A stretch of 26,247 bases of DNA from a virus, in the IMG/VR virus record IMGVR_UViG_3300025011_000172, positions 1 to 26,247 of that record. One strand, 5' to 3'. Under the pieces are notes generated by a model, which saw only the letters and a list, made by a program, of their open reading frames with translations, ran no database searches and was not told the origin of the DNA. Positions 6,461-26,247 of the stretch are shown piece after piece. The stretch's first letter is position 1, and each line of letters opens with the position of its first letter. The translations under genes and the position numbers were made by a program.

Positions 6461-8470
6461 TTAGTTCACCCCCAAGTAGGAAACTCCCTCATTATTTACC
6501 GACGAATCAACATAAACAAGGTTAAGATTACTAACCGGAATGGAGACAGATTCTTCTGCTCGCAAGCGTTTGCCGTATGCGCTACTTGAAACGCTTGCGT
6601 TGCCGATATAAATAAATCCAGTATTTGTATTTAATGCTATTATAAGTACCTGCTTACATGCTTGGTCTGCTGCAAGTTGGACTCTTGTCCCGGCAGTGGT
6701 TACATTTTTTATGCCTTGCAGTAGAGCGTTGCTACCAGTTACTTTGGTAAGTAAATTACCCTGTGCATCAGTCTGGAGGGTAACTGCATCCCCCTCATCA
6801 CGAGTAGCAGGAGTAGCATTATACTTACCTGCAAACAACACGGGGTTACCATTAGCTGCGGCACTATCAGCAGCTTTACCGACTGTTATCACATCGGCAG
6901 TAAGAGGTCTAGCAACACCCACGGCAAGAGATTTGACAGTCAAACTTGTACCTGCCCCTGCTGTAGAAATTACCGCCCTCACGGATTTATAACCTGATAC
7001 GTTGGCAGAATAAATTCCTGTGGCAATTGCCGTTGTCGCTGCCACACCCGTATCAGTTTTCGTGGCACTAAAAGCCGTATAGTTTGTACCGTCAACAGAA
7101 CCTTCCCAAGTTACTGTTGCTGTGTCGGGTGTTCCGGTAATTTGAAAAGCTATCGGCCCATAGCCTGAAACCGTTGCGGCAGTACCATTGCCGTCTGTTG
7201 TTGTTGCGTTTTGGTGTGTAGTTTCCAGCGTTGTTGCCGGGATACCGCCTTGGGCTAATGTGGCTTGTACGGCCGCTAACGTTGTCTCAGTAGCCGGTGC
7301 CGCTATAATCTTAGCCAGAATCGCCGCCAAAGTTGTTTGTGTGGCAAAATCCTTTGCAATCAGAGTGTCTTGCTTTGCCTCCGTTGCTGGTGCGGCTATA
7401 ATTTTCGCTAAGACTGCCGCTAATGTGGTCTGAGTTGCAAAATCTTTCGCATTTAAAGTGTCCTGTTTAGCCTCAGTCGCCGGTGCTGCAATGATCTTTG
7501 CTAGAACTGCTGTAAGGGTAGTTTGAGTGGCCGCATCTGCCGGCAAAGTCGTTAATATAGTAGGTATAGGATTTCCTACGGCCACGTCGGCATTACCTAC
7601 TTGCAGGTTTGCATTAGCGTTTAAATTGTCATGCGCTGCCTGATCAACAGTCACCGATCCGCCGCCATCCGAGACAACATTCTTCCGCATAATCTGATAT
7701 ACGGAACCGGCGGCAACATTTACAACTGCAATACCACCAGAAAATTCAACAGGCGTAACGGTAACAGGTACAACCCCATCAGAACCCGTCATGGTTGCGG
7801 TAAATTCTGCTAATTCATCAATCTTAACCGCAACAAGAGTCGCGGTATTCTTAGCATCGTCTAATACGCCGCCAGTTTTTCCGAGATAAACCGTTAAAAC
7901 ATTATCAGCAAAAGATGCCGACAGGTTATCATTGTCCCCTGGTGCTGCCACTACTTCAGCGGTTATCGAGTTACCTGCAACTCCCTCATTTACATAGACT
8001 ACCGTAACCTCTGCTGTGTCTGGAGTACCAACCATAGCACTTGCCGCCGCACCAGGAAGGGTAGCAATTGTCAAGGTAGTTGCCGTATTACTAGCTACTG
8101 TGCGGTAATAGTCAACGCCACTAATAGTAACTTTTGTAATATGTCCGGCGAACATATTAGTTTCAAAGTTTTTAGATGTGTCGATAATGGTAGTTTTACT
8201 GCCACCAGTCGCTGTACCACCGTCAAAATTACTGTCAACTATTGCTGGATTGGTAGCAGTAAACTTCTCGTCACCATCAGCATCAACAGGAATAAACTTA
8301 CCTGCTATCGCCGTACCTGCCGCTAGTTTTGCCGTTACTGAGCCATCTGAATTTAGAACTAAACCGACTATTTTATTATCACCGTCAACGCCGCCAATAG
8401 TGACGGGATTTTGCCTTGCTGCACTTTCACCTACTGGATTTTTACCTTCTGCAATGGAAATTTCAAACAC
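6461..8470 (-). CDS. Large structural protein with 31-residue tandem repeats, 669 aa
   Basis: The frame opens at GTG 8470, but that GTG lies inside the AGGAGGTG ribosome site, so the real start may be an in-frame ATT 8 nt beyond AGGAGG or a nearby codon. The first 300 residues are Ala/Gly/Thr/Val-rich beta, with a TTIIDTSKNFETNMFAGHITKV-like segment and a DNDNLSASFADNVLTVYLGKTGG-like segment that resemble phage sheath or tail-fibre beta domains. Residues 314-395 hold 2.6 copies of a 31-residue helical repeat (ATQTTLAAVLAKIIAAPATE core). Residues 400-520 form a beta-sandwich-like region (TATVTWEGSVDGTNYTAFSA) and the C-terminus a jelly-roll-like end (FIYIGNASVSSSAYGKRL). It follows the major capsid gene behind a terminator. 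It is probably a head fibre or long adhesion protein. The role is inferred. Confidence 0.8.
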   Translation of the reverse strand: MFEISIAEGKNPVGESAARQNPVTIGGVDGDNKIVGLVLNSDGSVTAKLAAGTAIAGKFIPVDADGDEKFTATNPAIVDSNFDGGTATGGSKTTIIDTSKNFETNMFAGHITKVTISGVDYYRTVASNTATTLTIATLPGAAASAMVGTPDTAEVTVVYVNEGVAGNSITAEVVAAPGDNDNLSASFADNVLTVYLGKTGGVLDDAKNTATLVAVKIDELAEFTATMTGSDGVVPVTVTPVEFSGGIAVVNVAAGSVYQIMRKNVVSDGGGSVTVDQAAHDNLNANANLQVGNADVAVGNPIPTILTTLPADAATQTTLTAVLAKIIAAPATEAKQDTLNAKDFATQTTLAAVLAKIIAAPATEAKQDTLIAKDFATQTTLAAILAKIIAAPATETTLAAVQATLAQGGIPATTLETTHQNATTTDGNGTAATVSGYGPIAFQITGTPDTATVTWEGSVDGTNYTAFSATKTDTGVAATTAIATGIYSANVSGYKSVRAVISTAGAGTSLTVKSLAVGVARPLTADVITVGKAADSAAANGNPVLFAGKYNATPATRDEGDAVTLQTDAQGNLLTKVTGSNALLQGIKNVTTAGTRVQLAADQACKQVLIIALNTNTGFIYIGNASVSSSAYGKRLRAEESVSIPVSNLNLVYVDSSVNNEGVSYLGVN
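7286..7531 (-). repeat. 93-nt in-frame tandem repeat, 2.6 copies
   Basis: Three units code for residues 314-344, 345-375 and 376-395 of the large structural protein. The protein repeats are nearly identical, while the DNA differs at many third codon positions, so the protein sequence appears to have been kept by selection after an old duplication. Confidence 0.9.
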
Positions 8471-8485
8471 CTCCTATATGTAAAA

Positions 8486-8513
8486 ATAGGCAGAGCGATT
8501 AAACTCTGCCTAT
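8486..8513 (-). terminator. Intrinsic terminator after the major capsid gene
   Basis: ATAGGCAGAG and CTCTGCCTAT form a perfect 10-bp stem with an 8-nt loop. On the minus strand it is followed directly by TTTTT. It lies between the stop of the major capsid gene and the start of the large repeat protein gene, so it should lower expression of the downstream structural genes relative to capsid. Confidence 0.88.
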
Positions 8514-8518
8514 ACTAA

Positions 8519-9421
8519 CTAACTAGGGTTGCAACCGAAAATAAAGCTGAAATCGTCCCAACCGTAGGAGAATCTTGCAATTGTAGCATACTTGGCAATC
8601 TCAGTATCGAAGTCCTCAGCTGCCTTAAAGCCAGGTTTTCTTCTCCAAAACCAATTTAAGAACATCCTTGCTCTTTCTGAGTCCAACATGAACCATGCGT
8701 TAGCGTCAGTCAACCACGGCCATTCAATGACATTAAACTTACCCTTCCACACGTTGATGCCGTGGTCGGTTGTCCCTGGTTTCTCATCAGTACCGGCGAT
8801 AACCAAGGCAGGTTCAAGTCCCTCAGTTGGAACCACAATAGTATCCGGCATAACCAAGAACTGATTGGCCTTATCATCTTCCCAACGACGCATAAGGTTA
8901 CGAACGGTTGTTACATTGGCGGCGGTCAATTCATATGCACCAAAATTGGAGGTCAAAGAAGTACTCCCTGGTGCTTTCGGGTGCGATGCAGAGCAAAGAG
9001 CAACGCCGTCTGGACCGGCAAAAGAGGCATTAAAAGCATTATTAAACGGCAACGCTGCGTGGTATTGAATGGTTCTGTATTCAACCATGCGGAGATTTTT
9101 AACGCGCTTTTTAATCTCTCCGTATTGTTCGTCGTCAACAAGTTCGCGCTCAATCTGTGTACCTTTGGAATATTTGCGGTGAATGTAGTTGGAGGTGTGA
9201 CCCTTCTTAATGTCCTCGTAGGCAACCTTATTCCCGGTTGCGCTCCATTCTTCCATTAACCCTAAGTCACCGACACCCTGATTGGTTTCCTGCGCCTTAG
9301 TGGAATTCTCAACGTTATACATCAGACCAAGATAATCCTTTTCTTTCTTACCTGCTAAGTCAAAAATCTTTCTCAAACCCGGTTCAAGCTGCTCCGCCCA
9401 ATTCTCAGAAATCATTGGCAT
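8519..9421 (-). CDS. Major capsid protein, HK97-fold type, 300 aa
   Basis: The ATG start at 9421 has AAGGAGGG 6 nt upstream. The 300-residue length, the position directly after scaffold and cement protein genes and the terminators on both sides are what is expected for the coat protein. Visible traits are an N-terminal MISENWAEQLEPGLRKIF helix, a long basic helix with KKRVKNLRMVEYRTIQYHAA (spine-helix-like), a GPDGVALCSASHPKAPG loop, a VMPDTIVVPTEGLEPA beta/alpha segment typical of the A-domain, and a FSYGWDDFSFIFG C-terminus. Coat proteins with this FSYGWxDxRxxxG-like ending occur in several podovirus and siphovirus families. The HK97 fold is a family inference, since no structure can be computed here. 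Confidence 0.9.
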   Translation of the reverse strand: MPMISENWAEQLEPGLRKIFDLAGKKEKDYLGLMYNVENSTKAQETNQGVGDLGLMEEWSATGNKVAYEDIKKGHTSNYIHRKYSKGTQIERELVDDEQYGEIKKRVKNLRMVEYRTIQYHAALPFNNAFNASFAGPDGVALCSASHPKAPGSTSLTSNFGAYELTAANVTTVRNLMRRWEDDKANQFLVMPDTIVVPTEGLEPALVIAGTDEKPGTTDHGINVWKGKFNVIEWPWLTDANAWFMLDSERARMFLNWFWRRKPGFKAAEDFDTEIAKYATIARFSYGWDDFSFIFGCNPS

Positions 9422-9441
9422 GTGTTTCCCTCCTTAAAATA

Positions 9442-9472
9442 AAAAGACCCAGGCAAACCGCCCAAGTCTTTT
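9442..9472 (-). terminator. Intrinsic terminator between cement protein and capsid genes
   Basis: On the minus strand AAAAGACTTGGGC pairs with GCCTGGGTCTTTT, a 13-bp stem with three G-U pairs and a GGTTT loop, followed by a T-rich tract. On the plus strand the same stem is followed by TTTTGTTG, so it may act in both directions. It separates the cement gene from the capsid gene, which then needs readthrough or its own promoter. Confidence 0.85.
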
Positions 9473-9504
9473 GTTGTTTAATTTTTAATTTAATTGGTTA
9501 ATAC

Positions 9505-10197
9505 TTACTTATGGATGTGCTTACGAATCATAACGTCCATAGTCAATTTAGCAGGATCGATATTCAAAACAACTAACGGACCCGCCTCACTAGCAATTGT
9601 AGCGTTGGCATCAATGGTATTTTCATCCTTCAAGTCAACGCCAATACTGCCTTTATTGATCACATCACCAGAACCACCAGCACCAAGCAAGATATACTTA
9701 CTGGCAGTTGTCGGGGCAACTGGGAACGGTTCTTCAACAGTCAAAGTGTCGGACGAACCAGTATAGTCCTTAACTGTGCGGATACTTCCTGCTGCCGGAC
9801 CTTCGTAAATATAAAGCAATGCACCATTCCAATCATCGTCTGATGATGTACTAAGTGCGGTGTCTACTAGAGTAGTGGTTGTACCACCAGTTGCCGAAGC
9901 ATCCCTATGATCAGCGAAAGAGCAACGGAATACCGCATAGGGGTTATCGTATACCTTGCCGTATGTAGTTGCGCCTGCCGGGTTAGTTGCTGTAGTAAAA
10001 GTTTGTTGCATAACACCAAGTACATTAGTTGCATTTGCAGCGGCCTTCGCAACCTTACCTGCGGTCAATACCACCATGTCGCCCTCAGAAAAAGCGGTAT
10101 TGGGGGTTAATTCGTACTTAACGGCGTTATCAACAATGCCATTAAGTTTACTGTTTACATACTCAAACCCATTTGTGGTTCTTGCAGTTAATGCCAT
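9505..10197 (-). CDS. Capsid cement/decoration protein, DUF2190-like, 230 aa
   Basis: The ATG start at 10197 has GAAGGTAGG about 8 nt upstream. Residues about 28-70 carry the pattern of the capsid cement family (DUF2190 type): YELTPNTAFSEGDMVVLTAG followed by VAKAAANATNVLGVMQQ. The central 100 residues are Thr/Ser/Asp-rich beta (TTTLVDTALSTSSDDDWNGA and LLYIYEGPAAGSIRTVKDY), longer than the usual small cement protein, so an extra beta domain seems to be inserted. It ends in PAKLTMDVMIRKHIHK. The place between scaffold and major capsid genes matches decoration or cement proteins, which bind the expanded shell and stabilise it. Confidence 0.8.
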   Translation of the reverse strand: MALTARTTNGFEYVNSKLNGIVDNAVKYELTPNTAFSEGDMVVLTAGKVAKAAANATNVLGVMQQTFTTATNPAGATTYGKVYDNPYAVFRCSFADHRDASATGGTTTTLVDTALSTSSDDDWNGALLYIYEGPAAGSIRTVKDYTGSSDTLTVEEPFPVAPTTASKYILLGAGGSGDVINKGSIGVDLKDENTIDANATIASEAGPLVVLNIDPAKLTMDVMIRKHIHK

Positions 10198-13311: not shown

Positions 13312-13337
13312 ATTTCACCACCTTTTAGACATAAAAA

Positions 13338-13395
13338 ATAGGGATGAAGCATAAGACAATGCCAATAATGACACTCTCCTACGCCCCATCCCTAT
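13338..13395 (-). terminator. Long-stem terminator-like structure upstream of the portal gene
   Basis: ATAGGGATG at 13338 pairs with CATCCCTAT at 13387, and an inner GCGTA/TATGC helix extends the stem. On the minus strand the structure ends in CCCTATTTTTT, a good T-tract. The large total loop makes it a weaker terminator than those beside the capsid gene, so it may allow partial readthrough into portal. Confidence 0.6.
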
Positions 13396-13418
13396 CGTTC
13401 TCGATTCGAGATAATTAT

Positions 13419-15544: not shown

Positions 15545-18277
15545 TCACATTCCGTAAAATCCAGGCAATCCTTCTTCTTCCTCGTCGTCATCATCGTCTG
15601 CCCATTGCTCCATAGACATGGGATTAATCCTTATGCCCTTGTCCTGCCCCGGTAGAAATGGTATACTGCCAGTGTCTTTAAGTGGCATCGTCATATGTAA
15701 AAATGCAAGTATAGCAGACATTAAGATAACATCGTCGTGCTGACCACCTCTTGCCGCCTCTTTGGTATTTGGGTGCCTTATAAAGTTATTTGCTTCATGG
15801 ACAAATCTCTTAAAGTAGCACTCGAAAACACCTTCGCGTACAGTCTTTTTAATAGCATCAATAATAAGTGGTCTAGTTTTTGTATTTGTATGCCAACCCA
15901 ATTTTTGAGTAGTCGTATCTGACCTTTTATCATAAACCTTTGACCTATAAATATCATAGTAAACCTTTTTGAAATGACTAATAGTTGTACCGCCATGATT
16001 ATTTAACTCTATCGCCACAAGCGGTTTACCGTAATAAACTGCAATTTTATGTATATAGTCAGACAGTATATCCGGTTCTACCTTGCCATGATACACAGCA
16101 TCAAGTCTTAATCTATGCCTATTAAGAACTCCTACAGCGTCATAGTCACCATGCTCCAACCCTTCCGCAACGTCAGCAGATATAAGGTATTCAATCCCTG
16201 CTTCGGGATGAAACCATATTTCATAATCACCCTTTACATCAGGTTCCCAATAGACTTGATTTTTGAATTGGTTAGTCCAAACAAGATTACCACGTTCACC
16301 GTCGTAACATTTAGTTTGCATCTCATGTATTCTTTTTACATTAAAAACACATTTACCGGGCATAATAAAACGCCCATATTTCCGCGCTTCTAACTCCGCT
16401 TCATCCATAGACGCTTCAAGACGTTTCTTTTCCTTTGTAGATAGATAGGGGTTGTCATTCCATTCTACCATTATTAGAAATATTTCATCGTCACGTTTCT
16501 CAATCGGTTTTGAGTCGTTCTCATAAATATCAGAATAAACCCATGTCATACCTTGAAGTGGGGTCATTGTACCGAACAAGTCACCCTCAGTATCCATTAA
16601 GCGCATTTGTACTTCTGTATATATATCTTTGGGAGATTCTTCGTCCAACCAACAATTTGAAACCATACATGCTCCAACAAAAAACCTATGATCTTTTTCG
16701 ATTGATAAGTCATATGTTTTTTTGTTGCCTAATGGTATTAGTCCTTTTATCCTACCATATTTTTCTTTTACTCTGTTGTTTTGCTTTTTCCAGTACATAC
16801 TTTTTTCTGAATCTAAGCATTTTGCAATTCTACTTCCGCAACCGTCTTTAGATGACTTACTTTCTATGCGTCTATTTGCTTCATCGACAACAATATCAAT
16901 TGCCTTTTGCTTACCTTCTATACCTACACGTTCTGCAAATTTAATAACATGGTCAGCAGAACTAATATAAACCCACCATTGGTTGCGCCATGCTCCAGGT
17001 TTTTGACTTTTCTTTTTAGTAAAACTTGAACGTATACCTATTCTGCGCAACAACAAGCAAACATCTTCTGCTAATCTACGCGAAGTCGAGGCGTACCCTA
17101 TTGTATGTCCTGATGCCCAACCGTCTCCAGCAAATAAAAAGCGTAAAAAAAGAGCAATATGCTCGTTGTCTGAACGGAAAACCCAATCAGGTACAAACTT
17201 TTCATGCGCAAGTCCAGGAGGTACCGCATCCCAAAACTCAGGCCAATTATTAATATGCCAGTCTGGAACATGATTACAACTCTTAAACTCCTGCTTTCTT
17301 ATATATGCACCGGCAGGCAAATATTCTTTGGCAGCGGCAACAATTTCTTCACTGCCAATAGTTATTTTCTTTTCTGACGTAGTTCCTTCACTAAGAACAA
17401 GTCCTAACCACGGATAAAAACTATCAGGCATATTTTCAACTACATCAGGTTGATAGTCTAAGTCAGACAAATATACTTTATCCGCTTCATTGACTTTCTT
17501 CTTTAATTTTTGTGAAACATAAACTTCGTGATCTTCTGTTAGTTGTATCCACGGAGATTTGCCAGTAACAACATCAAAAACTGGTTTTTCTCCCATATCG
17601 TGTTTGGCAATAACTTTTCTGGTAACTGTCTTTCCGCAACCATTTTTAGTTATAACGCTATCCCCAGGCATGACATTCTGTATTGGTTTATAGGTACCGT
17701 CAGACATTAATACTCGCTGATCTTCAGCAATGCACCAGTGTTGCGATGAACCTTGAAACTTTTCCCGTCCTTGGTCATAGGACTTGAAACCTATAATCCC
17801 ACCACCAACAAGGCGTATAGTGTCGATGATACCTGTACTACGGTAAGTTATTTTTTTAATTTCTCTTAGCGGCAGAAGTCCCGGTATTCCAGTCTCAGGA
17901 TCACCCAATATTTTCTTTTGAGTAACGTCACGCTGCACCTCAAAAGATACTGAACATATCCAACCCCTTGTAGGTTTACCACCGAAACGAGTTATCAGAG
18001 GTTCGTATTTCTCCCTTAAATCCTCTGGCCAATCTTTAAGGTATGGGCGTATTCTCTCGCCTAATGCAAGGAATACCGCCCTAATTGCACCACTTTCAGT
18101 TTTTCCTGTGCGATTCCCTCCAAGTATCCAGCTATTCCTTTTATTGGATAGAAGAAACTTTTCCTGCTTATCATACGGACGAATAAAGCGAATATGTTCT
18201 TCCTTCTTCATCCGTTCAATTTCACTAAGGATCTTTTGCAGTTCTTTCTTTTCTGCTTTTGTTAACTCTTTTGCCAT
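15545..18277 (-). CDS. terL: Terminase large subunit containing an in-frame intein
   Basis: This 910-residue precursor would give a 550-residue terminase after removal of residues 182-541. The ATPase has Walker A GGNRTGKT at 53-60 and, in the second extein, Walker B-like WLDEE at 543-547, followed by the coupling motif region FGTMTPLQGMTW. The nuclease part has a RuvC-like first acid in ISADVAEG (D702), an acid in VAIELNNHG (E757) and the HDDVILMSAILAFL motif (D848/D849). The protein packages DNA into the prohead through the portal and cuts concatemers. The intein interrupts the ATPase immediately before Walker B, so the unspliced protein should be inactive. An acidic tail (DDDDDEEEEG) closes the protein. 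It follows the head-fibre-like gene by 23 nt. Confidence 0.96.
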   Translation of the reverse strand: MAKELTKAEKKELQKILSEIERMKKEEHIRFIRPYDKQEKFLLSNKRNSWILGGNRTGKTESGAIRAVFLALGERIRPYLKDWPEDLREKYEPLITRFGGKPTRGWICSVSFEVQRDVTQKKILGDPETGIPGLLPLREIKKITYRSTGIIDTIRLVGGGIIGFKSYDQGREKFQGSSQHWCIAEDQRVLMSDGTYKPIQNVMPGDSVITKNGCGKTVTRKVIAKHDMGEKPVFDVVTGKSPWIQLTEDHEVYVSQKLKKKVNEADKVYLSDLDYQPDVVENMPDSFYPWLGLVLSEGTTSEKKITIGSEEIVAAAKEYLPAGAYIRKQEFKSCNHVPDWHINNWPEFWDAVPPGLAHEKFVPDWVFRSDNEHIALFLRFLFAGDGWASGHTIGYASTSRRLAEDVCLLLRRIGIRSSFTKKKSQKPGAWRNQWWVYISSADHVIKFAERVGIEGKQKAIDIVVDEANRRIESKSSKDGCGSRIAKCLDSEKSMYWKKQNNRVKEKYGRIKGLIPLGNKKTYDLSIEKDHRFFVGACMVSNCWLDEESPKDIYTEVQMRLMDTEGDLFGTMTPLQGMTWVYSDIYENDSKPIEKRDDEIFLIMVEWNDNPYLSTKEKKRLEASMDEAELEARKYGRFIMPGKCVFNVKRIHEMQTKCYDGERGNLVWTNQFKNQVYWEPDVKGDYEIWFHPEAGIEYLISADVAEGLEHGDYDAVGVLNRHRLRLDAVYHGKVEPDILSDYIHKIAVYYGKPLVAIELNNHGGTTISHFKKVYYDIYRSKVYDKRSDTTTQKLGWHTNTKTRPLIIDAIKKTVREGVFECYFKRFVHEANNFIRHPNTKEAARGGQHDDVILMSAILAFLHMTMPLKDTGSIPFLPGQDKGIRINPMSMEQWADDDDDEEEEGLPGFYGM
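16655..17734 (-). mobile_element. Intein with LAGLIDADG homing endonuclease in terL, 360 aa
   Basis: The intein runs from Cys182 (after SSQHW) to Asn541, with Cys542 as the +1 residue. Splicing block A is CIAEDQRVLMSDGTY, block B has TEDH at 247-250, and block F is YDLSIEKDHRFF with His530. The penultimate residue is Ser540 instead of the usual His. The endonuclease has two LAGLIDADG-like helices, LGLVLSEG at 291-298 (acid E297) and LRFLFAGDG at 378-386 (acid D385), both with the expected acid, so it may be active. The reading frame is intact. Confidence 0.95.
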
Positions 18278-20987: not shown

Positions 20988-21536
20988 TTATCCTTTAGCC
21001 ATGTACGAACGATTCACATAATAACAATCGTCCTTCCTGTACGCTACACCAGCACCGGCCAAAGCTGACATTCTTCTATAGAAGTTTCGTTCCGGCATCT
21101 TCAATATACGAATCAAATCGTCTGCGCTCAGTTTTTCCTTTTTCCGCTTGTCTGTCAATGCTCCATTGTCCCAGTCAATCAACGGCGACAACTTCACCAA
21201 AAATCCCATATCTGCATCACTCAGTTTTGCGCTCAGTTCCACCAATTTCTCATTGTATAGCTTCACGTAGCCTTTTTTGTTCCCTGTACTACGCTTTTTT
21301 GGCGGTTTCAGTCCCTTTTTCGTATTCCAGAACTCGTAATAAGAATGCTCTATGTCCTTATCACGAATACTAATGTGTTCAGACTGCTTGTCCGGAGACT
21401 CTTCCCTGGTGAAAATAGTTTGCGCGACAGTAGCGCTGACTCCCAGCGGAAATATTCCTTGCTCAGGTCTATTGTGCCAAACTTCGGCCCTGCCATATCC
21501 GAAGTCATCGTCGAGAATCAAGCATCTTTTTATCAA
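20988..21536 (-). CDS. Winged-helix-like DNA-binding protein, 182 aa
   Basis: The frame opens with TTG at 21536; GTGAG lies about 11 nt upstream and an in-frame TAG is just before the start. Residues 88-182 resemble replication-initiator or MarR/RepL-like winged helices: KLYNEKLVELSAKLSDADMG, LSPLIDWDNGALTDKRKKEK, then LSADDLIRILKMPERNFYRR as a helix-turn-helix and YYVNRSYMAKG as the wing. The N-terminal 85 residues have no recognised domain. It is the first gene of the minus-strand block behind a long structured leader, so it could regulate the block or act in replication. Both roles are inferred. Confidence 0.8.
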   Translation of the reverse strand: MIKRCLILDDDFGYGRAEVWHNRPEQGIFPLGVSATVAQTIFTREESPDKQSEHISIRDKDIEHSYYEFWNTKKGLKPPKKRSTGNKKGYVKLYNEKLVELSAKLSDADMGFLVKLSPLIDWDNGALTDKRKKEKLSADDLIRILKMPERNFYRRMSALAGAGVAYRKDDCYYVNRSYMAKG

Positions 21537-21628
21537 GCTAAAAACAACTCACTTTCGTATATATATACTGCTTTTCACGCAACAAACCAGCAAAGCCTTG
21601 TCGCTCTAGGGCTAGATGCCATTTTAGC

Positions 21629-21736
21629 ACCTGCCAAATATGGCAGGTAGAAATCATTTCTACATACATAAAAACAAAACAAAAAACACCCTCTCAGGTG
21701 CTCCGTAAACGATATATCCCTACTCAAAACAGTAGG
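21629..21736 (-). promoter_or_regulatory. Structured leader with dyads and possible attenuator
   Basis: On the minus strand the transcript would pass a CCTACT/AGTAGG hairpin (21719-21736), then AGCACC-TGAGAG-GGTGTT followed by T-rich sequence (about 21676-21702), then GTAGAAA/TTTCTAC (21647-21663) and the perfect dyad ACCTGCCA/TGGCAGGT with a 4-nt loop (21629-21648). The second hairpin looks like a weak intrinsic terminator. The dyads could also be repressor operators. No gene is supported between 21537 and 21925. Confidence 0.5.
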
Positions 21737-21779
21737 TCCATAGCTAAAAAATAAGCAGGTATAAAACTCCCACACTACC

Positions 21780-21808
21780 ATTTTATCACGACTAAACCCC
21801 GAAAACAA
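21780..21808 (-). promoter_or_regulatory. Minus-strand promoter for the leftward block
   Basis: On the minus strand TTGTTT (21808-21803) and TAAAAT (21785-21780) are separated by exactly 17 nt. Upstream on the plus coordinates are GTTTTC-type repeats with a 10-nt period (21821-21845), which could act as an AT-rich upstream element. Transcription would start near 21772, giving a leader of about 235 nt before the gene at 21536. A second weaker candidate (TTGTTG, 16 nt, TATATA at 21585-21558) is too close to the start. Confidence 0.5.
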
Positions 21809-21864
21809 GCAAAACTTTCCGTTTTCGCCGGTTTTCTTGTGTTTTATGCGGAATAAAATAACTG

Positions 21865-21892
21865 TTGACTATGGGTATCCATATATGATAGT
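21865..21892 (+). promoter_or_regulatory. Early rightward promoter P1 with operator site 1
   Basis: TTGACT (21865-21870) and GATAGT (21887-21892, 16-nt spacing; TATAGT at 21892 is an alternative) flank operator ATGGGTATCCAT at 21871-21882. The transcript would start near 21900 and begin with the SD GGGAGG of the gene at 21926. Confidence 0.65.
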
Positions 21893-21925
21893 ATAGTAAA
21901 AATAAATTAAGCGGGAGGAATACTA

Positions 21926-22144
21926 ATGAAAATTCAATATATCGGAGAAGTACCTGATAGCGCAAGAACAATAGTGAAAGGATATATCAGCGATATTCTG
22001 AAAGGCACAGAAAATGATAAATTTCTAGTCTGTCCTGAATATACTAAGTCGGATGAATTAACAAACTTCCTAAAAAACTTCAACGGCGAAGATAATTTAG
22101 TTTACGACAATGAAACATGGTATTATATCTACCCTAAAAACTAA
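21926..22144 (+). CDS. Hypothetical early protein, 72 aa
   Basis: The ATG has GGGAGG about 7 nt upstream. The product starts MKIQYIGEVPDSARTIVKG and ends YDNETWYYIYPKN. It appears alpha/beta and acidic. It is the first rightward gene, transcribed from an operator-bearing promoter and followed by a strong terminator, so it forms a single-gene unit. Early, repressed, single small genes in phages often encode host-takeover or anti-repressor functions, but nothing in the sequence identifies one here. Confidence 0.78.
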   Translation: MKIQYIGEVPDSARTIVKGYISDILKGTENDKFLVCPEYTKSDELTNFLKNFNGEDNLVYDNETWYYIYPKN

Positions 22145-22170
22145 CCGCCTAAACATGGCGGTTTTTCTTT
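22144..22170 (+). terminator. Strong intrinsic terminator
   Basis: ACCGCC and GGCGGT form a 6-bp GC-rich stem with loop TAAACAT, followed by TTTTTCTTTTCTTT. It starts at the last base of the preceding stop codon. Confidence 0.92.
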
Positions 22171-22184
22171 TCTTTAGAGCTGGG

Positions 22185-22214
22185 TTGCCATATGGGTATC
22201 CGTTATAGTATACT
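22185..22214 (+). promoter_or_regulatory. Promoter P2 of the RHH gene with operator site 2
   Basis: TTGCCA (22185-22190) and TATACT (22209-22214) are 18 nt apart. Operator ATGGGTATCCGT is at 22192-22203 within the spacer. The expected start near 22221 coincides with the SD, giving a very short leader. Confidence 0.7.
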
Positions 22215-22235
22215 ATCCCTGGAGGTGATTTTAAA

Positions 22236-22436
22236 ATGTCAGCAAAAAGAAAAGAAAAATATAGAGACGGTTGGGAAAGTTTCAACCTGCGCCTGTCAAC
22301 CGAGGATAAAGCAAAACTAGCCGAAATGTCAGCAAATACGCGGGTTCCGGCATCCGAAATAGCTAGAAACGCTATCAAAAAAGAACTTGCGGAACTTCAA
22401 AAAACGCTGAAAAAGGCAGATACAGCTAGTATCTAG
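22236..22436 (+). CDS. Ribbon-helix-helix (Arc/CopG-type) regulator, 66 aa
   Basis: The ATG at 22236 has GGAGGTGA 7 nt upstream. After a basic N-terminus (MSAKRKEKYRDGW) comes the DNA-contacting strand ESFNLRLS at residues 14-21, helix 1 TEDKAKLAEMSANTR at 22-36, the VPASE turn and helix 2 SEIARNAIKKELAELQ. This is the full ribbon-helix-helix order of Arc, MetJ and CopG, which bind DNA as dimers at short palindromic operators. The repeated ATGGGTATCCAT sites overlap its own promoter and the two neighbouring promoters, so autorepression and control of the early genes are the likely job. The partner of a toxin-antitoxin pair was considered, but the next gene does not resemble a toxin. Confidence 0.88.
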   Translation: MSAKRKEKYRDGWESFNLRLSTEDKAKLAEMSANTRVPASEIARNAIKKELAELQKTLKKADTASI

Positions 22437-22449
22437 TAGGCATGTTAAG

Positions 22450-22461
22450 CTGGATACCCAT
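22450..22461 (-). promoter_or_regulatory. Operator site 3 (inverted copy)
   Basis: On the minus strand it reads ATGGGTATCCAG, matching 11 of 12 bases of site 1. It lies 49 nt upstream of site 4 and may allow cooperative or looped binding. Confidence 0.65.
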
Positions 22462-22490
22462 AGATAGCTGAATATAAGGTTATTTGAGGC

Positions 22491-22520
22491 TTTACGGCAT
22501 GGGTATCCATAAGCTATACT
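22491..22520 (+). promoter_or_regulatory. Promoter P3 with operator site 4
   Basis: TTTACG (22491-22496) and TATACT (22515-22520) are 18 nt apart. ATGGGTATCCAT lies at 22499-22510 between them. It would transcribe the accessory block from 22582 rightward, with a start near 22527. Confidence 0.7.
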
Positions 22521-22581
22521 AAGCACATGGAACACAACAACAAAATAACAAACGCCCACAGAGGCGAAGGAGGATAATAAA

Positions 22582-22980
22582 ATGACAATGACAATTCAAA
22601 ACTTCATCGAGCAGAATAAAATTAAAATGTCCTGCGAGTATGCAGACAGCAACCCAAACATGGCAGACTCCGCAAACATGAACCATTATAAGTGTCAACT
22701 TCGCAGAAGCGGAAAGCAACTAACAATTAACTTTTCACAGGGTTATGGAATATCAGGAGATCCGGAAGTTGAATCAGTATTAAGTTGCTTGGCATCAGAT
22801 TCAATAGGGGTAGAAAATGCAGGAAATTTTGAGGACTGGGCGCAGGAATACGGATACGACACAGACAACAGGAAGGCAGAAAAAATATATAAAGTGTGCG
22901 AAAGACAGTCGCAAAAATTAAAGAATTTCCTTGGAGAAGAATTATACGGTAAATTATTATGGGAAACCGAGCAATACTAA
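22582..22980 (+). CDS. Conserved phage/plasmid-type hypothetical protein, 132 aa
   Basis: The ATG has GGAGG about 8-9 nt upstream. The protein starts MTMTIQNFIEQNKIKMSCEY and has the pattern DSNPNM, MNHYKCQLRRSGKQL, FSQGYGI, LSCLASDSIGVENAGNFEDW, EYGYDTDNRKAEKIYKVCER and a LGEELYGKLLW end. I recall this combination from many phage and mobile-element genomes as a protein without assigned function. It appears soluble, alpha/beta, with a conserved SQGYG motif. It is the first gene of the rightward accessory block. Confidence 0.85.
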   Translation: MTMTIQNFIEQNKIKMSCEYADSNPNMADSANMNHYKCQLRRSGKQLTINFSQGYGISGDPEVESVLSCLASDSIGVENAGNFEDWAQEYGYDTDNRKAEKIYKVCERQSQKLKNFLGEELYGKLLWETEQY

Positions 22981-23035
22981 CCCACCTGACGAGTGCCGGA
23001 CGGTAACCGGTCGAATCCCCGAAAGGGGAAGTGGG
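22981..23035 (+). ncRNA. Hammerhead-ribozyme-like three-way junction
   Basis: The element begins at the base after the stop codon. CCCAC (22981-22985) pairs with GTGGG (23031-23035) as stem I. The core CTGACGA (22986-22992) fits CUGANGA. Stem II is G-C plus GCCGG/CCGGT with one bulged T and loop ACGGTAA. GAA (23013-23015) follows, then stem III TCCCC/GGGGA closed by GAAA. In known hammerheads the 15.1-16.1 pair is A-U; here it is T-A, and the base before the cleavage position is A (23030). Whether it cleaves is therefore uncertain. Confidence 0.5.
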
Positions 23036-23066
23036 AAACCAAACTAAATACGAGGAGGATGCACAC

Positions 23067-23222
23067 ATGAAATATCAAGGATTAGTAGTTGACAGTTTAA
23101 AGTCACTGGATACCAAAAAAACCAAATCTTACGACACCTACAAAGAGGCACACGATGCAGCCGAAAAACTCTGTAAGCGCACGATGGGAGATAGAGGTAA
23201 GGTCGAAGTCGAAACCCGCTAA
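23067..23222 (+). CDS. Small hypothetical protein, 51 aa
   Basis: The start is ATG 23067, because GAGGAGG lies 8 nt before it. An upstream GTG would lie in the ribozyme-like stem and has no ribosome site. The product starts MKYQGLVVDSLKSLDTKKTK and is Lys-rich with a DAAEKLCKRTMGDRGK helix. Short proteins of this kind (YKSYDTYKEAHDAAE) occur in phages and mobile elements with unknown function. Confidence 0.75.
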   Translation: MKYQGLVVDSLKSLDTKKTKSYDTYKEAHDAAEKLCKRTMGDRGKVEVETR

Positions 23223-23427
23223 GTCTACTCCGTGAAGGCCGGAGCAGGAGGCCAAAAACCTCCTGACAGTTCAAGGGTTATCATTAGACCCAGCGCACCG
23301 ACAGCAACAAACTACCAACAGAATACGAAAAACCCCACAGCGCAACCCGGTGAAGTCTGCATGATGCGGATCAAAGGGAGCGAACACTGGATACGAGGCT
23401 AACGGTGCTAGATATGCAGAAAAGGGG
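23223..23427 (+). ncRNA. Unidentified structured RNA region of about 200 nt
   Basis: No gene is supported in 23223-23499. First domain: GTCTA (23223-23227) pairs with TAGAC (23285-23289), extended outward by GCT/AGC, enclosing CTCCG/CGGAG (23228-23244) and AGGAGG/CCTCCT (23246-23264, loop CCAAAAA). Second domain: CCCC (23333-23336) with GGGG (23424-23427), enclosing TCTGCAT (23356-23362) with ATGCAGA (23414-23420). The alternative TCTGC/GCGGA hairpin (23356-23370) would exclude the last helix, which would allow switching. I do not recognise a known riboswitch, intron or tRNA. Confidence 0.5.
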
Positions 23428-23429
23428 AA

Positions 23430-23483
23430 GTTTAGGTTTTATCCAAACGCCTTCGATAGAGGGAATTTCGATAAAACTTAAAC
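23430..23483 (+). promoter_or_regulatory. Long intercistronic hairpin, family 1 copy A
   Basis: TTTAGGTTTTATC (23431-23443) pairs with GATAAAACTTAAA (23470-23482), 13 bp with one G-U. The helix then continues inward through AAA/TTT and CCTTC/GAGGG to a GATA loop. It ends 3 nt before the SD AGGAG of the gene at 23500. No T-tract follows. Confidence 0.75.
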
Positions 23484-23499
23484 AAAGGAGATTGATAAC

Positions 23500-23784
23500 A
23501 TGAAAAACATGACAGTTAGAGAATTATTACCGACCATTGGGATCATAGAAAGCGTTATCGATGAAGTTATCGGAAACCTTGAAATGTCAGTATCGAGAGG
23601 TTACGACATCAAATCCAGAGGAATCAGAACAGATAATAAAGTCCAAGTAGTAACGGTTTCACCGAATGTAAAATGGACAGATGGAACCTGCAGACCAGCT
23701 TATGGCGGTAGGGAATACGAGGTAACGATTTACCTAAACAAATTAACAGATGTAAATTTAAGGAGGGTTTTTGATTTACAGTAG
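23500..23784 (+). CDS. Hypothetical protein, 94 aa
   Basis: The ATG at 23500 has AGGAG 9 nt upstream, right after the long hairpin at 23430-23483. The product starts MKNMTVRELLPTIGIIESVI and has a beta region with KVQVVTVSPNVKWTDGTCRP and REYEVTIYLNKLTDVNLRRV. It is a soluble alpha/beta protein of unknown family. The stop is followed by the second family-1 hairpin. Confidence 0.78.
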   Translation: MKNMTVRELLPTIGIIESVIDEVIGNLEMSVSRGYDIKSRGIRTDNKVQVVTVSPNVKWTDGTCRPAYGGREYEVTIYLNKLTDVNLRRVFDLQ

Positions 23785-23789
23785 AACCT

Positions 23790-23839
23790 TTTTAGGTTTT
23801 ACCTCTGCATCCTGCCGGGTGTGGAGTTAAAATCTAAGG
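23790..23839 (+). promoter_or_regulatory. Long intercistronic hairpin, family 1 copy B
   Basis: An almost continuous helix of 23 pairs with one mismatch joins TTTTTAGGTTTTA (23790 on) with the segment ending TTAAAATCTAAGG (23827-23839), and runs up to CATCC/GGGTG and a TGCC loop. Its 3' arm reaches the first GG of the GGAGG used by the gene at 23852, so it could mask the ribosome site. It shares TTTAGGTTTTA with copy A. Confidence 0.78.
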
Positions 23840-23851
23840 AGGATGATAATT

Positions 23852-24112
23852 ATGAATTATGAAAAATTAACAAAGTTAATGAACGGCGAAACTGTTAAAG
23901 TTGGTAAGAAAAATAATCAAATATACCTCGATAAAGCAACAGACTTGTTTGTAGTTGAAATGTATGAGTTTACAAGTGATTTGGAAGGTGAGATGTTTAG
24001 TATTGGTGATAGTTTTGAAAACATTGAAGTTGCCGTAGCAGTAGCCACTAGATATACATGCGAGACTTATAACTATGAGGTACAGCAAAGATTATTAAAA
24101 CAGTTTGCATAA
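23852..24112 (+). CDS. Hypothetical protein, 86 aa
   Basis: The start is ATG 23852: GGAGG at 23838-23842 abuts an earlier ATG at 23843, which is too close, and has 9-nt spacing to this one. The product begins MNYEKLTKLMNGETVKVGKK and contains YLDKATDLFVVEMYEFTSDL and SFENIEVAVAVATRYTCETY. It is acidic, alpha/beta and of unknown family. Confidence 0.76.
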   Translation: MNYEKLTKLMNGETVKVGKKNNQIYLDKATDLFVVEMYEFTSDLEGEMFSIGDSFENIEVAVAVATRYTCETYNYEVQQRLLKQFA

Positions 24113-24122
24113 AATAACCATT

Positions 24123-24171
24123 AGGGACTCCGGTCCCTGCTTCGCCAAAACTCCTTTAGAGAGGGGTTTTG
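24123..24171 (+). promoter_or_regulatory. Two-hairpin intercistronic element, family 2 copy A
   Basis: Hairpin 1 is AGGGAC-TCCG-GTCCCT (24123-24138). Hairpin 2 is CAAAACTCCT-TTAGAG-AGGGGTTTTG (24146-24171), 10 bp with one G-U. SD AGGAGGGG follows 9 nt later. The same two-hairpin layout and much of the sequence recur at 25865. Confidence 0.8.
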
Positions 24172-24194
24172 TTGAGGTAAAGGAGGGGTTAGCC

Positions 24195-24386
24195 ATGATG
24201 TTCACATTCGCCGCATCGATCTGGCACAACAGCACCAAGAACGAAATCATGGGCCACATTATGAACAATATCAAGGGTAGTGAGTTTAAAATCACCGAGG
24301 AACCAGACAATAAGATTAAGAATGTCGGCAAATTTGAGTATGAGAGTAGCGAGGGACTTGACTATCACATCTACAAAATTAAGTAG
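24195..24386 (+). CDS. Hypothetical protein, 63 aa
   Basis: The start is ATG 24195, with AGGAGGGG 6 nt before it. Upstream in-frame codons lie inside the two-hairpin element. The product begins MMFTFAASIWHNSTKNEIMG and ends in a charged beta segment (KFEYESSEGLDYHIYKIK). No family recognised. It is followed after 12 nt by the next gene without a hairpin, the only tight junction in this block. Confidence 0.72.
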   Translation: MMFTFAASIWHNSTKNEIMGHIMNNIKGSEFKITEEPDNKIKNVGKFEYESSEGLDYHIYKIK

Positions 24387-24398
24387 GAGGATAAAACT

Positions 24399-24668
24399 AT
24401 GAAAAAAGGCGACATTGTAGAAATTAAAGGCGGTTATTTCAAGGCAGACAATGGACTTTTCCGTGTAGAGCAAGCACCGGGAGATCCGGGTTGGTTAGGC
24501 AATGACTGGTGCCTATACCGAGTCAATAAAGATTATACCTACTCCAAGAGTAAACACAGAACAGCATTTTGGCCGCTTATGGTTACGGTATCAAGTCGCG
24601 AAAAACGCATAGAAGCAAAAAAGCACAACGCCGAACATGCAACGATTGAAGTTATAAGACCAGCTTAA
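24399..24668 (+). CDS. Conserved phage-type hypothetical protein, KOW/SH3-like, 89 aa
   Basis: The ATG has AGGAGG about 8 nt upstream, starting at the preceding stop. The product starts MKKGDIVEIKGGYFKADNG, followed by LFRVEQAPGDPGWLGNDWCL, SKSKHRTAFWPLMVTVSSRE and a helical end. The KxGDIVEIKGG opening and beta order look like an SH3/KOW-like barrel. I recall related sequences in phage and plasmid accessory clusters without known function. Confidence 0.82.
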   Translation: MKKGDIVEIKGGYFKADNGLFRVEQAPGDPGWLGNDWCLYRVNKDYTYSKSKHRTAFWPLMVTVSSREKRIEAKKHNAEHATIEVIRPA

Positions 24669-24717
24669 TTTCTGGTTTATCCTAACCTTAAACGAGTTAG
24701 GATATGCGAGGGATTAA
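24665..24717 (+). promoter_or_regulatory. Long intercistronic hairpin overlapping a stop codon
   Basis: ATCCTAAC (24679-24686) pairs with GTTAGGAT (24696-24703) around a 9-nt loop. An outer helix TTAATTTCT/AGGGATTAA (24665-24673 and 24709-24717, with two G-U pairs) extends it, giving about 20 pairs with two mismatches. The SD AGGGAGG lies a few nt downstream. The stem contains the TAA of the preceding gene. Confidence 0.7.
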
Positions 24718-24736
24718 ATAAAGGGAGGAATAAATA

Positions 24737-25363
24737 ATGAAAACTTTATATTTTGAAGGTGCCGGAAGTGTACCGCGCGGAATGGTTGAAAACTGCCGCA
24801 TTAGAACAGCTTTTCATAATGACAAGGGAGAGGCCATCTACTTAGAAATGTCTGGTTTTGAAGTAACTAAAAACAGTCCCAGAAGTATCAAGCAGTTTAC
24901 TTGTGCCGGATTCGTTGACCATTGTCATTATATTATGGGTGACGATGATTGTAACAAGCACAGCATTGTAGATATGAGGCACAAAACATTTGAATACAAC
25001 AAATCCGAAATACTTAGTATTGTAAATTCTCTGGGATGCAGTTTTGACGAGGTTGTTATTCTTCCCGACTTAGCCGGTTATCGCGTTTTTAAGGATCGCG
25101 AAGGTCACAACTTCGGTGATGAATTTCAATTTAACGCAGAACTCGCCGCACGCGCAGAAGAAATCAGGGTCCATTTTTACGCACTAGAAAAAAGCGAGGG
25201 TAAGAAATACCCTAACTTTTCACTATGGGTTGACCAGGATAACAAGGAAATGCTTCACTTGTTGCGACATTTTAACGGCTATAACAAGCACTGGTCAATA
25301 GTAAATAGCGAAAACTGGCAGGAAAGCATAGTCGAAACCGTATTTGGAAAGTACGCCTGTTAA
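24737..25363 (+). CDS. Hypothetical protein, 208 aa
   Basis: The ATG has AGGGAGG about 8 nt upstream. The product opens MKTLYFEGAGSVPRGMVENC, with RIRTAFHNDKGEAIYLEMSG, a Cys/His-containing middle (AGFVDHCHYIMGDDDCNKH), an EILSIVNSLGCSFDEVVILP segment and a C-terminal NFSLWVDQDNKEML part. The FxGAGxVPRGxVENCRIRTAF pattern is known to me from phage and mobile-element hypothetical proteins. The Cys and His residues might bind metal. No catalytic family can be named. Confidence 0.85.
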   Translation: MKTLYFEGAGSVPRGMVENCRIRTAFHNDKGEAIYLEMSGFEVTKNSPRSIKQFTCAGFVDHCHYIMGDDDCNKHSIVDMRHKTFEYNKSEILSIVNSLGCSFDEVVILPDLAGYRVFKDREGHNFGDEFQFNAELAARAEEIRVHFYALEKSEGKKYPNFSLWVDQDNKEMLHLLRHFNGYNKHWSIVNSENWQESIVETVFGKYAC

Positions 25364-25377
25364 TATACAAATTAAAA

Positions 25378-25414
25378 CTCCCCGGTAGCTGTTGCGAGCA
25401 GTAAAACCGGGGAG
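25378..25414 (+). promoter_or_regulatory. GC-rich intercistronic hairpin
   Basis: CTCCCCGGT and ACCGGGGAG form a perfect 9-bp stem, with an inner GCTG/CAGT helix and TTGCGAG loop. There is no plus-strand T-tract, but on the minus strand it is followed by TTTTAATTT, so it could terminate opposing transcription. The SD of the next gene is about 35 nt further on. Confidence 0.75.
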
Positions 25415-25463
25415 CAGGGAAAATATTTAAGTCACACATATTATAACATAGGAGGGCGACTAA

Positions 25464-25863
25464 ATGAGTGCTTATGTAGTAGACAAGGAAACCATTGACC
25501 GTATTGTAACTTATATCCACAGACAACACATTGATATTGACATTATTTGCAGTTATTATCCAGAAATGGCGGAAGCATACAAAAGGCGACTGCAACAAAC
25601 TAGGCCAAAAGATGCTGACAATGAACAATAAGGCGGTTGACTATCGTTATAATGAGAATAACCCCATTGAGATTTACAAGTATAGTTATGTCGTTGCTAG
25701 TTTAGTACAGGTTTATAAATCCTTGCAATGCTTTTTATACCAATGCAGTGAGGGAGATATTCCGAAGTCGAAACTTTTCCAAGGTTTACGCAGACTAGAG
25801 CATAATATAGCTAATCAAATTATCTCCAATATGCCGGAATACAACAAGGCACAATGGGGTTAA
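25464..25863 (+). pseudogene. Conserved phage-type protein split by a +1 frameshift
   Basis: The first part (ATG 25464, AGGAGGG about 7 nt upstream, TAA at 25629-25631) starts MSAYVVDKETIDRIVTYIHR and ends out of register after a TACAAAAGG run. The second part lies in the +1 frame to TAA 25861-25863 and contains NKLGQKMLTMNNKAVDYRYN, VQVYKSLQCFLYQCSEG and the end NMPEYNKAQWG. I recall a family in which an MSAYVVS-type start and the LGxxM..MN..AV..RY, YKSLQCxLYQCSEG and LPEYxxAxWG motifs are in one protein of about 130 residues. Moving frame by one base near 25580 (AAAA run) restores this layout. Alternatives are two coupled genes (the second from ATG 25621) or programmed frameshifting. Confidence 0.72.
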
Positions 25864-25864
25864 T

Positions 25865-25910
25865 AGGGACACACGTCCCTTGCCTAAACTCTCTAGTAGG
25901 AGGGTTTAGG
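25865..25910 (+). promoter_or_regulatory. Two-hairpin intercistronic element, family 2 copy B
   Basis: Hairpin 1 is AGGGAC-ACAC-GTCCCT (25865-25880). Hairpin 2 is CCTAAACTCT-CTAGTAGG-AGGGTTTAGG (25883-25910), 10 bp plus two more possible pairs with one or two G-U. It is followed by GAGGGG and later GAGGGAGG. It matches the design of the element at 24123, with conserved stem 1 sequence and compensated changes in stem 2. Confidence 0.8.
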
Positions 25911-25949
25911 GAGGGGATCTCCAATATTATGAGGGAGGTTTTACTTATT

Positions 25950-26219
25950 ATGAATTTCATAGGTGGAAGAAATGTCGATTTAAACAACGTGAAAATTACT
26001 TTTGACGATGCACCCGGCGAGTTAGAATTAGGCACAGTCTGGAAAATTGACAGCGACATGAATTTACTACAGATTATCACCGACACCGACCACGAGGACG
26101 GAATTGCCCAATTTGCCGATTGTGAAAGCATTGCTAGATATATCAGCGACTTTTACTTCTATGACTACAAAAAACCGGAAGGATTAACCGAATTTCTTGA
26201 AAAAGTCAGAAAATTATAG
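25950..26219 (+). CDS. Hypothetical protein, 89 aa
   Basis: I choose ATG 25950 with GAGGGAGG 11 nt upstream; an in-frame ATG at 25929 has only a distant GAGGGG. The product starts MNFIGGRNVDLNNVKITFDD and is acidic, with a beta region (VWKIDSDMNLLQIITDTD) and a C-terminal helical part (PEGLTEFLEKVRKL). The family is unknown. After its stop the window ends in CCTGCCGTGTCAGG, possibly the start of another intercistronic hairpin. Confidence 0.72.
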   Translation: MNFIGGRNVDLNNVKITFDDAPGELELGTVWKIDSDMNLLQIITDTDHEDGIAQFADCESIARYISDFYFYDYKKPEGLTEFLEKVRKL

Positions 26220-26247
26220 TCTTTCGTTATCTCCTGCCGTGTCAGGG

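Follow-up and report, generated by a model that had tools for sequence, protein, structure and literature searches.

The window analysed here is a 26-kb virus record (26,247 nt; IMG/VR record IMGVR_UViG_3300025011_000172) in which a rightward block of small accessory genes starts at 21926. The gaps between these genes (22981-25949) hold a series of RNA elements, the first of which is a variant of the hammerhead self-cleaving ribozyme. At the same junctions, related phage contigs (designated L003, L052, L106 and so on) carry Pistol ribozymes or type-II hammerheads, and the elements are kept while the genes around them are exchanged. These findings go beyond the original prediction, which had proposed RNA structures before nearly every accessory gene and a post-transcriptional control system for the whole block. 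Such a system is supported by conservation at the RNA level (compensatory changes and sense-strand stability), by the colinearity of the elements in relatives, and by known self-cleaving ribozymes. The gaps probably punctuate one polycistronic accessory transcript, cutting or capping it, and double as homology for cassette exchange.

The first gap contains two features.
22981-23040, plus strand: type-I hammerhead core variant (U15.1-A16.1, A17), identified by descriptor, covariance model, covariation and folding.
23041-23055, plus strand: conserved leader AAACTAAATACGAGG, which runs into the Shine-Dalgarno sequence and is common to L003 and L052, where it stands behind other ribozymes.

Positions 22981-23035 read CCCAC, CUGACGA, stem II, GAA, U, CCCC, GAAA, GGGG, A, A and GUGGG. 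Specifically, three helices surround the core with stem I open (98.6–99.1% of cells paired); stem I is formed by CCCAC/GUGGG and stem III by CCCC-GAAA-GGGG, while the 3' AAACC pairs with the loop of stem II. The core strands CUGACGA and GAA fit the hammerhead strands CUGANGA and GAA, and are identical up to N7 in L106, L105, L107 and L009. The canonical A15.1-U16.1 pair with its NUH cleavage triplet is replaced by U15.1-A16.1 with A17. Because the swapped pair occurs in four other phages and a natural U15.1-A16.1 hammerhead is reported to self-cleave, albeit more slowly (PMC3088659), we classify the element as a core variant and not as a canonical hammerhead. The cut is predicted between 23030 and 23031, which would place the next AUG (23067) 36 nt downstream.

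The helices covary. Double-compensatory changes were found at 6 of 14 and at 10 of 16 pairs in two tests, the latter over seven sequences and reached in 0 of 500 shuffles. The distal tertiary contact is a 3-bp pseudoknot between loop II and the 3' strand, and it covaries as well, from GGU:ACC in the window to AGU:ACU in L009. Covariation of helices and pseudoknot spans 5–7 phages; some alignments were fitted to the same structure under test. A hammerhead descriptor run over both strands of 1.95 Mb found the U15.1-A16.1 form only in the window and in L009, a distant relative reached via gene H of the accessory block. When viral contigs were scanned for this common core, five matches came up: L009, L105, L106 and L107, which are real, and one chance match. 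With the window this makes five real sequences. All have the 15.1-16.1 pair swapped, resemble one another in the loop of stem II and carry AAAC(C/U) on the 3' side. A covariance model trained on these five scores them at 77–87 bits and finds further loci in L115 and L113 at 51–54 bits. Among the seven, the 15.1-16.1 pair is U-A in five and A-U in two; the core of L115 is canonical (A15.1-U16.1), and the CUGANGA strand of L113 is altered. The minimum free energy (MFE) fold of the segment is the hammerhead in L106 and L115; for the window, the hammerhead is about 2 kcal/mol less stable than the MFE fold. The Rfam hammerhead threshold is not reached, and an Rfam search of the window gave no matches to any family. 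The variant model found no match in 391 Clostridia genomes, a scan that had no positive control and is hence uninformative. On these comparisons, the identity of the first gap as a ribozyme is well supported; self-cleavage of the window hammerhead is predicted.

The equivalent junction is occupied by a Pistol, above the gathering score of Rfam family RF02679, in L003 (50 bits), L110/L111/L112 (67 bits) and L114 (57 bits; PMC4604425 for Pistol), and in L052 by a hammerhead with one altered core base (A9G). The leader AAACTAAATACGAGG is kept in L003 and L052, has a close form in L106, L113 and L114, and is absent from L110 and L115. Replacement of one ribozyme class by another at a single junction implies that the function selected there is RNA scission. 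As the modules of this element, E1, are interchangeable and scission is common to all of them, mRNA scission is the most likely selected function at E1. Fifteen related records hold six Pistols, all within the block and near gene H, and the distant gene H carriers L005, L006, L008 and L009 (two copies) have Pistols in the same neighbourhood; L005 additionally has a Twister-P5. L105 has a Twister-P1-like ribozyme at 4232-4281 (minus strand), which with 37.4 bits falls short of the gathering score of 67.2; it adjoins a strong hairpin and lies about 750 nt 3' of a hammerhead variant. In the L009 gaps at 6667-9722, the loop UAUAACA(G) recurs in many intergenic stems, including hammerhead stem III and the Pistol loop.

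The next gap contains a type-II hammerhead in L003 (37.4 bits), L106 (44.8 bits), L052 and, by sequence, L114. The window retains a trace of it.
23208-23216, plus strand: GTCGAAACC, apparently the leftover 5' part of a type-II hammerhead that L106, L003 and L052 still have intact and that can be seen in L114 too.
In the window, GTCGAAACC is joined to CGCTAAGTC, a sequence that sits one gene further on in L106. The arrangement is consistent with loss of the type-II hammerhead and a gene by deletion between AAACC repeats.

The remaining gaps are dominated by hairpins.
23223-23291, plus strand: two-hairpin module (CTCCG..CGGAG and AGGAGG..CCTCCT), near-identical in L106 and L113; L003, L052 and L114 have the type-II hammerhead instead.
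23332-23428, plus strand: branched structured RNA of about 97 nt, also in L106, L003, L110/L112 and L005.
23430-23483, plus strand: F1a hairpin, 22 bp, immediately 5' of the Shine-Dalgarno sequence.
23787-23842, plus strand: E3 hairpin, 25 bp with one C.U mismatch, whose 3' arm enters the Shine-Dalgarno sequence; in every close relative found.
24123-24178, plus strand: small GGGAC-UCCG-GUCCC hairpin, then a 17-bp hairpin with a conserved C.U mismatch, from folding and comparison.
24665-24718, plus strand: 21-bp hairpin with two 1x1 mismatches, from folding; no homologue found.
25356-25419, plus strand: E4 element, a CUCCCCGG..CCGGGGAG hairpin with an internal loop, closed by CCUG/CAGG; in L003 and L052.
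25866-25919, plus strand: small GGGAC-ACAC-GUCCC hairpin and a second, long one containing a G.G mismatch; shared with L113 and L115.
26220-26247, plus strand: 5' half of the E7 hairpin, truncated by the window end; complete in L003 and L052.

All the gaps named in the original prediction exist, each bounded by a stop codon and the Shine-Dalgarno sequence that comes next, and seven of the eight listed between 22981 and 25949 are structured; the 12-nt gap at 24387 has no fold, as had been stated. The observation is confirmed. Six gaps fold far below dinucleotide shuffles, with MFE z-scores of about −6 to −7 (23785-23851), −4.2 to −5 (23223-23499), about −4.4 to −5 (25864-25949), about −3.6 to −3.8 (25364-25463), about −3.2 to −3.5 (24669-24736) and −2.4 to −2.9 (24113-24194). 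The mean for 40 coding windows of 70 nt from the same genes is −0.03, with none below −2. The first gap (22981-23066) is not significant (z about −0.9 to −1.3) and has the strongest covariation support of all gaps. Energy alone is thus a poor test, because the plain MFE z-score missed the hammerhead. Nearly all gap elements were found again in relatives, most with compensatory changes. Even the half hairpin at the right end is genuine, since the whole element is present in L003 (9113-9176) and L052 (4064-4131).

The 24 hairpins measured have 14–25 bp, mostly 16–25, usually with one 1x1 mismatch and a short loop, and so resemble the roughly two-turn imperfect helix of an RNase III site. Double-compensatory changes occur at 6 of 22 pairs of E3 (9 sequences), 5 of 23 pairs of the 24113 element (5 sequences), 3 of 26 pairs of the 25864 element (3 sequences) and 3 of 16 pairs of F1a (8 sequences). 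The hairpins contain 79 G.U pairs but only 2 A.C oppositions, and in 24 of 24 the sense fold is stabler than the antisense fold, a test biased toward sense because the hairpins were chosen by sense folding. Compensatory changes, sense-strand G.U pairs and true ribozymes together argue for selection on RNA. Inverted repeats between cassettes could also be DNA-level palindromes serving replication, packaging or integron-like functions, which we consider highly improbable in view of the sense-strand G.U bias, the single orientation and the ribozymes. Integron attC sites were rejected by inspection: attC-like AAC...GTT ends are not seen, and the stem ends, GTT...AAC, are the reverse of attC.

The 97-nt RNA has no match to an Rfam family. 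Its model recovers L005 independently (41.8 bits), and its covariation, from four training sequences, is suggestive only; an 18-base scan for it gave mostly chance matches. E4 (window 25356-25419, L003 6555-6617, L052 2895-2945) is near invariant, including its internal loops, with an A-rich strand on the 5' side, and may have tertiary structure; a pattern scan for it returned only the two known relatives. The pattern used to look for GTTTTACC hairpins was able to match no element but E5, and most of its matches arose by chance. For the other hairpins, Twister, HDV-like and hairpin ribozymes were weighed as candidates; Rfam gave no match.

Where hairpins meet the Shine-Dalgarno sequence, they might control translation by hiding or exposing it, alone or with a phage RNA-binding protein. 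The 3' arm of E3 enters AAGGAGG in the window, L106, L110 and L115, and there this motif is able to pair with a CUCC or CCUU further 5'. In L003, however, the Shine-Dalgarno sequence behind E3 is free, about 12 nt off, and most other elements leave it unpaired. The identity of the mismatch also differs (C.U, G.G, C.C, U.C), which disfavours a single protein site. We regard translational control as quite unlikely. Alternatively, the hairpins merely stabilise mRNA ends and only the few ribozymes cut. Hairpins do adjoin ribozymes or directly precede Shine-Dalgarno sequences, and the 97-nt RNA has a long hairpin behind it in the window, L106, L003 and, by inspection, L005; but a long hairpin at every junction exceeds the need of a few cut products, and this explanation appears rather unlikely to us.

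The order of the elements is conserved. E1–E7 are colinear in the window, L003 and L052, so far as each has them, and E1–E3 also in L106. Best local identities of the elements are mostly 86–100%; one E1 pair has 78%, as its two ribozymes belong to different classes and the alignment covers mainly the leader. Structural genes overall have 71–85% DNA identity; those of L003 and L052 have about 71–82% to the window, other relatives reach at most 89% in short stretches, and portal protein identity is 84%. These values are lower, which places the non-coding elements among the best conserved parts. The genes flanking E1, E2, E3, E6 and E7, called by script, have no similarity beyond shuffles save two weak cases (z of 3.2 and 3.8); at E4 and at E5, some pairs have one flanking gene in common. 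Individual genes also move on their own. Gene H stands behind the 24665 hairpin in the window and behind E3 in L003; L052_2466 and L110_7059, 84% identical, stand behind different hairpins; and the KVRYYELEG gene follows the type-II hammerhead in L106 and precedes E1 in L114 and L115. The RNAs thus seem to form a constant RNA-processing scaffold in which the genes can be exchanged.

The same pattern, conserved and colinear elements with exchanged genes, together with the apparent deletion between AAACC repeats, would be expected if the elements were mainly recombination patches like the promoter-stem-loop cassettes (PeSLs) of T4-type phages, kept for gene shuffling, with RNA folds mattering little. 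Such patches would not account for the compensatory changes, the sense-strand G.U pairs or the true ribozymes, and the gaps have neither promoter nor terminator; we find this explanation unlikely. Specifically, the plus strand of 22981-25949 has no T-tract, terminator-type stem-loop or other terminator-like site, in line with the proposal that the hairpins are not ordinary terminators; over 21500-26247 the plus strand has a single terminator-like site, at 22143. No promoter-like site, including an early sigma-70 promoter, was found on the plus strand inside the gaps, most of which are too short 3' of the hairpin.

Under the punctuation mechanism that we favour, the ribozyme would cut the nascent mRNA 36 nt 5' of the next start codon and so produce a 5'-OH end. 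As their size, their place and the lack of a U-tract suggest, the long hairpins would be substrates of a double-strand RNase, for instance host RNase III, or would cap new ends against exonucleases. Each small gene would become a separate mRNA, whichever gene is plugged in. Conserved elements would serve as homology patches for exchange of single-gene cassettes, recombination at the elements explaining the exchange. Among the options first raised, RNase III processing and 5' stabilisation suit two-turn hairpins better than a translational regulator. A further-reaching version, in which each junction cuts RNA on its own as a module of a self-contained plug-in expression platform with interchangeable ribozyme classes, the 97-nt RNA and perhaps E4 are undescribed ribozyme classes, and the lineage conserves RNA and not genes, seems to us a doubtful proposition.

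Several points weigh against the mechanism. Ribozyme cleavage in vivo within the block, and action of RNase III or a protein on the hairpins, are inferred. In vitro, canonical hammerheads cleave faster than the form with the U-A core (PMC3088659), and the altered cores of L113 and L052 may be inactive. No homologue of the 24665 element was found, and the close relatives are all metagenome contigs from few projects.

Phage hammerheads and Pistols, T7 RNase III sites and T4 PeSLs are already known; what is new is that the ribozyme class changes at one junction and that an RNA scaffold holds exchangeable genes. The RNase III sites of the T7 early region lie between early genes as two-turn hairpins that have internal mismatches and no T-tract. 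The hairpins here are likewise mismatched two-turn helices between genes with no T-tract, but the sequence families are unrelated, ribozymes are present, and cleavage is putative. Perreault et al. (2011) described clustered phage and prophage hammerheads and suggested that long transcripts are cut (PMC3088659). There, too, small phage genes, one at a time and of varying identity, are flanked by several self-cleaving ribozymes, and the U15.1-A16.1 core is active. In the present block, by contrast, conserved hairpins that are not ribozymes alternate with the ribozymes, one junction varies in ribozyme class (a hammerhead in the window, bona fide Pistols in L003, L110/L111/L112 and L114), and RNA order is kept despite gene turnover. 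The mobile regulatory PeSL cassettes of T4-type phages (cited in PMC4503421) are also stem-loops between small genes linked to gene shuffling; the present elements differ in their ribozymes, their conserved order and their lack of promoter and terminator.

Family matches are absent for most genes of the rightward block; the clearest, a weak one, is a ribbon-helix-helix regulator (22236-22436). Four exact copies of ATGGGTATCC flank this gene and adjoin sigma-70-like promoters.
21871-21880, 22192-22201, 22452-22461 (minus strand) and 22499-22508: copies of ATGGGTATCC, from exact sequence matches.
They are likely operators of an autoregulated early promoter; L003 has similar sites around the homologous gene. 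The MSAYVV... gene (25464-25863) is two overlapping frames in the window and a single frame of 130–131 aa in L003 and L052, reflecting either a frameshift or a sequencing error. A relatives search with this narrow gene gave no additional relatives, and a distant blastn search with the 5.7-kb right end of the window matched no GenBank phage. Among the late genes, which run leftward, are those for a P22-like portal, a Mu-like gpT head protein and the terminase, whose large subunit (15545-18277, minus strand) is split by an intein with Hint and LAGLIDADG domains. On the late strand upstream of the portal gene, a very stable long hairpin with one mismatch (13312-13418, minus strand; z −7.8) is followed by a U-tract, and is either a terminator or a late counterpart of the early hairpins.

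The block bears on the open question of why phages carry self-cleaving ribozymes. It offers a natural comparative test, in which unrelated ribozyme classes swap ahead of the same leader, and the window, L106, L115, L110 and L114 provide ready pairs for experiment. It also connects ribozymes with conserved hairpins and with the turnover of small accessory genes.

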